A DNA stretch of 33,688 nucleotides from assembly GCA_001303125.1 (NCBI GenBank), contig LJNE01000004.1, positions 1 to 33,688 on the forward strand, given 5' to 3'. Origin of the DNA: Parcubacteria bacterium DG_74_1. GTDB taxonomy: Bacteria > Patescibacteriota > Minisyncoccia > Minisyncoccales > DG-74-1. The notes below the pieces were generated by a model. The model did not search any database. It was not told the DNA's origin and saw only the letters and a list, made by a program, of their open reading frames with translations. Below are positions 17,323-18,758 of the stretch, in pieces. The translations under genes were made by a program, and so were the position numbers. The stretch's first letter is position 1; each line of letters begins with the position of its first letter.

Positions 17323-18408
17323 ATGAAATTTCCAATTTTCAAAACCAAAACAAAAGGAGTAACAAAGAAATTCAATTTAGCCGACCCGAAAGAGAGAGCG
17401 GCTTATTTTCAATCAAAGGCCGGGCTGGAAATTGCTAAATTGAGGAAATATTTAAGAAGAAATACTTTCATTGCTTATTTTCTAGGAAAGAAAAATTCCG
17501 GCAAGGGAACTTATACAAAAATGCTTGCCGAGATACTTGCTCCGGAGAAGATATCGCACTTTTCAATTGGCGATATGATCAGAGAAGTGGATGAAGAACT
17601 TAGGAATAAAAAAAGAAAAAGAGAATTATATTCCTTTTTGGAAAGAAATTATCGGGGCTGGCTCCCCTTTAAAAGAGTATTTTCTGCCTTAGAAAAGAGA
17701 AGCACGAAAACTCTTTTGCCGAGCGAGTTAATTTTAGCTCTGGTAAAAAGGGAAATATTTAGAAGAAAAAAGAAAACTCTTTTTATTGACGGTTTTCCTA
17801 GAGACCTAGATCAGGTTTCTTATTCTTTATTCTTTCGGGATTTGATTGGCTATCGAGAAGACCTAGACATTTTTGTTTTAATTGACGTTCCCGAAAGTGT
17901 CATTGATGAAAGAATTAAATGGCGAAGAGTCTGTCCTAGATGTCAGACCTCAAGAAATTTTAAATTACTTCCCACTTCAAAGATAGATTACGATAGGAGA
18001 AAAAAAGAGTTTTATTTAGTTTGCGATAATCCAAGTTGTCCGGCCTACCTGTCGGGTAGACAGGGAGTAAGAATGATTGCCAAAGAAGGAGACGAATTAG
18101 GAATAGCACCGATAAAAGAAAGATTAAAATTAGATGAGAAATTAATAAGACAGGCCTTTTCTCTGTACGGAATTCCCAAAATATTTTTAAGAAATTCTTT
18201 ACCCGTAAAGATTGCTAAAAAATTCGTTGATGATTACGAAATTACTCCCGAATATAACTATCAATGGGACAAAGAAGAAAACGAAGTAAGGATCATTGAA
18301 AAACCATGGATTATTCGGGACGATGAAGGAGTCCCATCCTATAGTTTATTAGCGGCGCCGGTAACAGTTTCCTTAATAAAACAAATGGCAGATGTTTTAG
18401 AGCTTTGA
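17323..18408 (+). CDS. divergent adenylate kinase/nucleoside monophosphate kinase
   Basis: FLGKKNSGKGTYTK, FSIGDMIR, FIDGFPRDLDQ, RRVCPRCQ...CDNPSCPAYLSGR lid-like region. Confidence 0.8.
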   Translation: MKFPIFKTKTKGVTKKFNLADPKERAAYFQSKAGLEIAKLRKYLRRNTFIAYFLGKKNSGKGTYTKMLAEILAPEKISHFSIGDMIREVDEELRNKKRKRELYSFLERNYRGWLPFKRVFSALEKRSTKTLLPSELILALVKREIFRRKKKTLFIDGFPRDLDQVSYSLFFRDLIGYREDLDIFVLIDVPESVIDERIKWRRVCPRCQTSRNFKLLPTSKIDYDRRKKEFYLVCDNPSCPAYLSGRQGVRMIAKEGDELGIAPIKERLKLDEKLIRQAFSLYGIPKIFLRNSLPVKIAKKFVDDYEITPEYNYQWDKEENEVRIIEKPWIIRDDEGVPSYSLLAAPVTVSLIKQMADVLEL

Positions 18409-18409
18409 C

Positions 18410-18439
18410 TTGACTAATAGTTTGACTGAGAGGTAGAAT
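18410..18439 (+). promoter_or_regulatory. promoter for the structured ncRNA
   Basis: TTGACT - 18 nt - TAGAAT, start expected near 18446. Confidence 0.65.
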
Positions 18440-18445
18440 AAAATT

Positions 18446-18585
18446 AGCCTTGTGTCTTCTAGCTAGATTCTGGTCAAACGTTCTTTTCGGGAGTCGGATA
18501 TGTTCTCCTTCTATCGGAAGAAGACTTGGACGCCCACTTAATAATTTTCCGGATTACGAACCTTCTAGAAGAAACACAGGGCATC
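18446..18585 (+). ncRNA. structured ncRNA, candidate 6S RNA (ssrS-like)
   Basis: Arms 18447-18462 and 18565-18582 pair over about 16 bp with a 2-nt bulge; inner UCUGG/CCGGA, CGUUC/GGACG and apical CUUC/GAAG helices flank a large asymmetric internal loop; own promoter and terminator. Confidence 0.6.
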
Positions 18586-18614
18586 AAAAAACGTCCCTGG
18601 TCAGGGCGTTTTTT
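18586..18614 (+). terminator. rho-independent terminator
   Basis: AAAAAACGTCCCTG-GT-CAGGGCGTTTTTT. Confidence 0.92.
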
Positions 18615-18687: not shown

Positions 18688-18758
18688 TCGGGCCAGGGCG
18701 AATCGAACGCCCGCTTTACCCACCCCAAGGGCATGGACTACCATTATCCTATGGCCCG
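18688..18758 (-). tRNA. tRNA-Pro(GGG)
   Basis: Minus strand CGGGCCA/TGGCCCG acceptor, TGCCC-TTGGGGT-GGGTA anticodon arm, GGGCG-TTCGATT-CGCCC T arm; C1-G72 and A73 fit bacterial tRNA-Pro; CCA not encoded. Confidence 0.92.

Follow-up and report, generated by a model that had tools for sequence, protein, structure and literature searches.

The structured RNA described here is very probably the 6S RNA gene (the ssrS equivalent) of the Parcubacteria/Patescibacteria in a short and divergent form, an identification drawn from sequence homology, with a role at RNA polymerase predicted on the same grounds. In bacteria, 6S RNA restrains RNA polymerase by mimicking an open promoter, and it has been described as nearly universal. 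No relevant paper on 6S RNA in CPR/Patescibacteria, Parcubacteria or Saccharibacteria was found in the open-access literature. The RNA is encoded in Parcubacteria bacterium DG_74_1, within a stretch of 33,688 nucleotides that is referred to below as the window.

The small-RNA locus occupies a 280-base gap between an adenylate-kinase-like gene (17323-18408, + strand) and a tRNA-Pro gene (18688-18758, - strand). The gap contains a sigma-70 promoter, a rod-like RNA of about 140 nt and a terminator ending at 18614, and no open reading frame of at least 60 aa overlaps the RNA or lies within the gap. The features of the locus, with the evidence for each, were as follows.

18410..18439, + strand: sigma-70-type promoter TTGACT-18-TAGAAT (promoter search; fixed distance in homologs)
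18444..18586, + strand: 6S-like RNA (bounds by covariance model R2, 97.9 bits)
~18446, + strand: predicted transcription start
18447..18462, + strand: lower closing stem, 5' strand, GCCUUGUGUCUUCUAG (minimum-energy fold; covariation helices 1-3)
18468..18473, + strand: upper closing stem, 5' strand, UUCUGG (covariation helix 4; RF00013 alignment)
18474..18488, + strand: central bubble, 5' side, UCAAACGUUCUUUUC (comparative data)
18489..18535, + strand: apical arm of 47 nt with a GGG-A-GUC / GAC-G-CCC base, an AUAU internal loop and an apical hairpin (covariation helices 5-8; RF00013 alignment)
18489-18495 / 18529-18535, + strand: base of the apical arm, GGGAGUC / GACGCCC (comparative data)
18536..18548, + strand: central bubble, 3' side, ACUUAAUAAUUUU (RF00013 alignment; position of the -10-like element in known 6S RNAs)
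18549..18553, + strand: upper closing stem, 3' strand, CCGGA (covariation helix 4)
18565..18582, + strand: lower closing stem, 3' strand, CUAGAAGAAACACAGGGC (minimum-energy fold; covariation)
18586..18614, + strand: intrinsic terminator AAAAAACGUCCCUGGUCAGGGCGUUUUUU, a 12-bp stem with one bulge and a T-run (minimum-energy fold)

The promoter and terminator proposed in the initial annotation were both recovered. TTGACT (18410-18415) and TAGAAT (18434-18439), separated by an 18-nt spacer, agreed with the consensus at ten of twelve positions, and two such sites were found against 0.4 expected in shuffles. Among 100 homologs a promoter score of at least 10/12 was reached in 64% compared with 2.4% of shuffles, and the -10 element started 10 nt upstream of model position 1 in fifty-four. 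The minimum-energy fold includes the terminator hairpin with its T-run as far as 18614, and the element at 18586..18614 is omitted by a stricter consensus terminator scanner because of the bulge in its stem. A terminator-like hairpin was present downstream of 63 of 99 homologs, where four were expected. The conserved promoter and the terminators in homologs support autonomous transcription of the RNA as the probable arrangement. A tRNA gene was often located within about 200 bases of the 6S-like gene, as in the flanks of loci L076, L103, L105, L106, L107 and L113 and as with the tRNA-Pro gene of the window mentioned above.

The minimum-energy fold of the RNA was -53.8 kcal/mol (z = -3.3) and none of 200 shuffles was equally stable. 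Both the long closing helix GCCUUGUGUCUUCUAG/CUAGAAGAAACACAGGGC and the UCUGG/CCGGA helix that had been drawn from the sequence were present in this fold, while the inner helix CGUUC/GGACG was not conserved as drawn, and the comparative data leave CGUUC unpaired in the 5' bubble. The overall layout of closing stem, bubble and apical hairpin was borne out by covariation in alignments of 100 and of nine sequences. With a stable fold, covariation and no open reading frame of at least 60 aa, the rod-like non-coding RNA of about 140 nt can be regarded as real.

In the alignment of 100 sequences (A3), which had been fitted to the structure, all 34 of 34 base pairs had compensatory changes on both sides. 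Pairing was retained in 94.2% of cells as compared to 67.8% in shuffled and 43-53% in slid controls, and double changes numbered 903, as opposed to 224 after shuffling and 114-164 after sliding. An alignment of nine sequences made with MAFFT from the sequence alone served as an independent control and gave 14 pairs with double changes versus 8.2, with a covariation of 0.405 versus 0.245 (0.07-0.19 when slid). The consensus consists of the lower closing stem followed by the upper closing stem UUCUGG/CCRGAA, a 5' bubble mostly of 15-17 nt that begins (G)NACAAA, an apical arm GGG-A-GYC...GRC-A-CCC with a near-invariant GGG/CCC base and an interior of an AUAU internal loop and a variable hairpin, and a 3' bubble of 13-14 nt with ACYUGGA then a U-rich run. 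The median core length of the homologs was 140 nt, and the window RNA measures about 169 nt up to the end of the terminator.

An alternative conformer with two small hairpins was considered and rejected, as its 5' hairpin GGAC-AAAC-GUUC showed no enrichment and was disrupted in the closest relatives. Its 3' hairpin (CUGGA...UCCAG) was enriched in homologs and was retained as a possible alternative state. Hairpins formed by the 3' bubble with the 3' strand of the upper closing stem beat 95% of shuffles in 41% of the 100 homologs, where 5% would be expected, and no strong hairpin of this kind was found in the window sequence itself. A 3'-bubble hairpin is a feature of E. coli-type 6S release and does not occur in all known 6S RNAs.

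Homologs were detected by blastn in nine of 60 genomes including that of DG_74_1, and these nine sequences were used to build covariance model R1; the 100 sequences of A3 gave model R2. Of the 196 genomes searched within the order to which DG_74_1 belongs, R1 detected the RNA in 148, and in a class sample it did so in 62 of 238, almost always with one copy per genome; R2 matched 96 of 287 genomes in a phylum sample. Absence from a quarter of the genomes of the order may reflect loss, incompleteness or strict filters. R1 also matched the reverse strand at the same places with far lower scores because the stems are palindromic. When a degenerate pattern was searched, the named genomes with a match were restricted to Candidatus Parcubacteria, Nealsonbacteria and Paceibacterota plus two MAGs labelled just 'bacterium', and the pattern search of viral contigs gave no match.

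The proposal in the initial annotation that this is a candidate 6S RNA, though a short one, fared differently at the two levels at which it was checked against Rfam. At the level of the window sequence the check was negative: no family matched the RNA even at E<=10, the standard search gave tRNA only, and the 6S family RF00013 had no match in the whole genome, the RNA thus not reaching the gathering score of 46.4 bits. Weak Rfam matches up to E 10 elsewhere in the window fell on the terminator or flank and were dismissed as chance. For LOOT and other motif families of the Weinberg type there was no Rfam match and nothing relevant in the literature, and they were set aside. At the level of the homologs the check was positive, and it is these that bridge to RF00013. 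When all 4227 Rfam families were searched against 20 homologous loci, RF00013 was found at exactly the RNA and on the correct strand in eight; seven of these eight matches covered the full model, the best at 42.4 bits (E 8e-6). The three best RF00013 matches over the 196 genomes of the order (E<=3.5e-4) were all on R1 intervals, with scores below the gathering score in every genome searched. By estimate, random coincidence of an RF00013 match with an R1 place would occur about once in thousands per match.

Among the 287 phylum genomes RF00013 gave 22 matches at E<=0.1, of which 16 shared an interval with R2 and the remaining six were in genomes without an R2 match under fast filters. Three phylum genomes exceeded the RF00013 gathering score (55-60 bits), two of them at R2's own match and the third with a weak R2 match on re-scoring. 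Re-scoring of 14 RF00013 phylum loci (L177-L190) with filters off gave an R2 match at the 6S place in every one, weakly so in L183 (27 bits), L177 (21.9 bits, E 0.014) and L184 (21.2 bits). An RF00013 match in genome G156 (18.6 bits) was taken as chance, R2 giving it no support. R2 had no match to E. coli ssrS (6S RNA) with filters off, and the link to 6S therefore rests on the intermediates. In the printed RF00013 alignments GGG...CCCACCUGGA and both bubble strands were in register with the apical arm tip deleted, and the bubble strands measured 16-17 and 13-14 nt in homologs as compared to 16 and 13 in the RF00013 consensus.

A new and unrelated structured RNA might have come to resemble the 6S rod by convergence, its RF00013 matches then stemming from no more than a shared layout, and this would fit the failure of RF00013 to match the window member. 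Such convergence is nevertheless highly unlikely given that the best genome-wide RF00013 matches co-locate exactly with R1 and R2, that the CCCACCUGGA bubble edge is conserved in common with 6S, and that matches above the gathering score occur within the same phylum. We conclude that the family of the window RNA is homologous to 6S RNA, as the bridging sequences indicate. This shortened, strongly diverged relative of 6S RNA is widespread in Parcubacteria, and in most of them, this genome included, it scores too low to be recognized by Rfam.

A short, near-universal, single-copy rod could also be expected of a clade-specific SRP RNA or of another housekeeping RNA (RNase P, tmRNA) missed by Rfam, and SRP RNA (RF00169, RF01854) was not detected in the organism's own genome or in 100 relatives. 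This explanation is scarcely credible, since the 20 homologous loci were matched by 6S and none by SRP, and tblastn with E. coli sequences recovered grpE, ftsE and rplS from the genome but neither Ffh nor FtsY, so that an SRP RNA would be without its partner. SRP RNA was consequently rejected as the identity, there being neither a covariance-model match nor an Ffh partner, and it is possible that the SRP targeting pathway has been lost in the order. RNase P RNA was located elsewhere in the genome. tmRNA was also rejected, as ARAGORN found none in the assembly (L194-L227) and the RNA is not tmRNA-like; its absence could be due to incompleteness or divergence. The assembly is about 92% complete and its all-Rfam scan excluded one 20-kb stretch (L226).

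Known 6S RNAs carry a -10-like element on the 3' side of the bubble and a -35-like region in the apical arm; synthesis of a pRNA by the polymerase begins on the 5' bubble and runs on into helix P2, upon which P2 opens and the enzyme is freed. Each of these parts has its counterpart in the window RNA. Probably driven from its own promoter, this RNA forms a rod that consists of a closing stem, a bubble of 15-16 plus 13 nt and an apical arm of reduced length, as the comparative data show. By homology with known 6S RNAs it would bind the RNA polymerase that contains the housekeeping sigma factor, acting as an open-promoter imitation, and would have a role tied to growth phase. An RpoD homolog is present in the genome. 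In this imitation the non-template -10 region would be represented by the 3' bubble strand (CCCAC then UUAAUAAUUUU in the window, YUGGA and a U-rich run in most relatives), the upstream -35 side by the apical arm, and the downstream duplex by the upper closing stem (helix P2). At about 7 + 6 + 8 steps, the apical arm would by estimate be just long enough for the -35 contact. Under an ample supply of nucleotides, synthesis of a short pRNA would begin on the 5' bubble strand and run on into the UUCUGG helix, opening this helix and letting the polymerase go. The pRNA would probably start opposite C18475, which is the conserved C in the ACAAA/UCAAA motif, and would read 5'-GACCAGAAUC....

The pRNAs reported so far have in common a GG at positions 4/5 or 5/6 and an adenine beside the start (PMC8414754). 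In the family described here, a possible pRNA start with its adenine is provided by the well conserved C-A step of ACAAA, whereas the 5' template strand UUCUGGNAC reads GG, so that the predicted pRNA has CC in place of the GG at positions 4/5 or 5/6. The 5' strand of the upper closing stem (UUCUGG) is G-rich here and C-rich in known 6S RNAs, and the predicted pRNA therefore differs from theirs.

In other respects the RNA resembles the RF00013 6S RNAs (E. coli SsrS, B. subtilis 6S-1 and 6S-2) in its closing-stem rod, its apical arm and a bubble that matches theirs in size (16 + 13 nt), in the conserved GGG...CCCAC(C/U)UGGA at the bubble edge, and in being a single-copy gene with its own promoter and terminator. 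The apical arm of 47 nt is about 25 nt shorter than the ~72 nt of RF00013, and the total of about 140 nt compares with ~180-200 nt. The core also falls short of the 160-200 nt or so that is typical of 6S RNAs, a length that does not strictly define them (PMC9130861). The Aquifex aeolicus 6S RNA is also short at ~160 nt (PMC9130861); the Parcubacteria RNA is shorter still and from another phylum, and the two are likened by length, not sequence.

Ms1 RNA of Actinobacteria, of ~300 nt with extra terminal hairpins, binds core RNA polymerase without sigma and first came to light as a candidate 6S RNA on structural grounds, hence structure alone cannot separate Ms1 from 6S (PMC9130861). The window RNA might accordingly be a 6S-related RNA with a changed partner, like Ms1, which by definition is not 6S, and its pRNA template polarity differs from that of known 6S RNAs. 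Such a change of partner is unlikely, as the sequence homology is to RF00013 and the RNA has the central-bubble rod in common with Ms1 but only about 140 nt without the extra terminal hairpins. No Ms1 family match was obtained in the window at E<=10 or on the 20 homologous loci.

For the 6S RNA favoured here, there is a tentative case that Patescibacteria carry a structurally reduced type, whose arm would just extend to the -35 contact and whose pRNA template helix has its G/C polarity reversed. If true, this RNA would be one of the smallest natural 6S RNAs and would represent a distinct mode of binding and release, and global polymerase sequestration would have been kept even in genomes of ~0.6 Mb. 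Truncated B. subtilis 6S-1 RNAs with short arms bind ~10-fold more weakly but still complete the cycle in vitro (PMC8876501). A 6S RNA that is minimal by nature would fit this work and make the minimal requirements of polymerase mimicry testable. Patescibacteria/CPR account for a very large share of bacterial diversity and have minimal genomes in which gene regulation is largely unknown, and a covariance model of the Parcubacteria RNA family would annotate the 6S gene in hundreds of Rfam-silent genomes.

Two full matches to the 6S-like model were observed in each of three genomes, G083 (C2:9395-9538 and C5:19114-19260), G189 and G151. These doubled copies are possibly paralogs like 6S-1 and 6S-2 of B. 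subtilis, or the result of MAG contamination.
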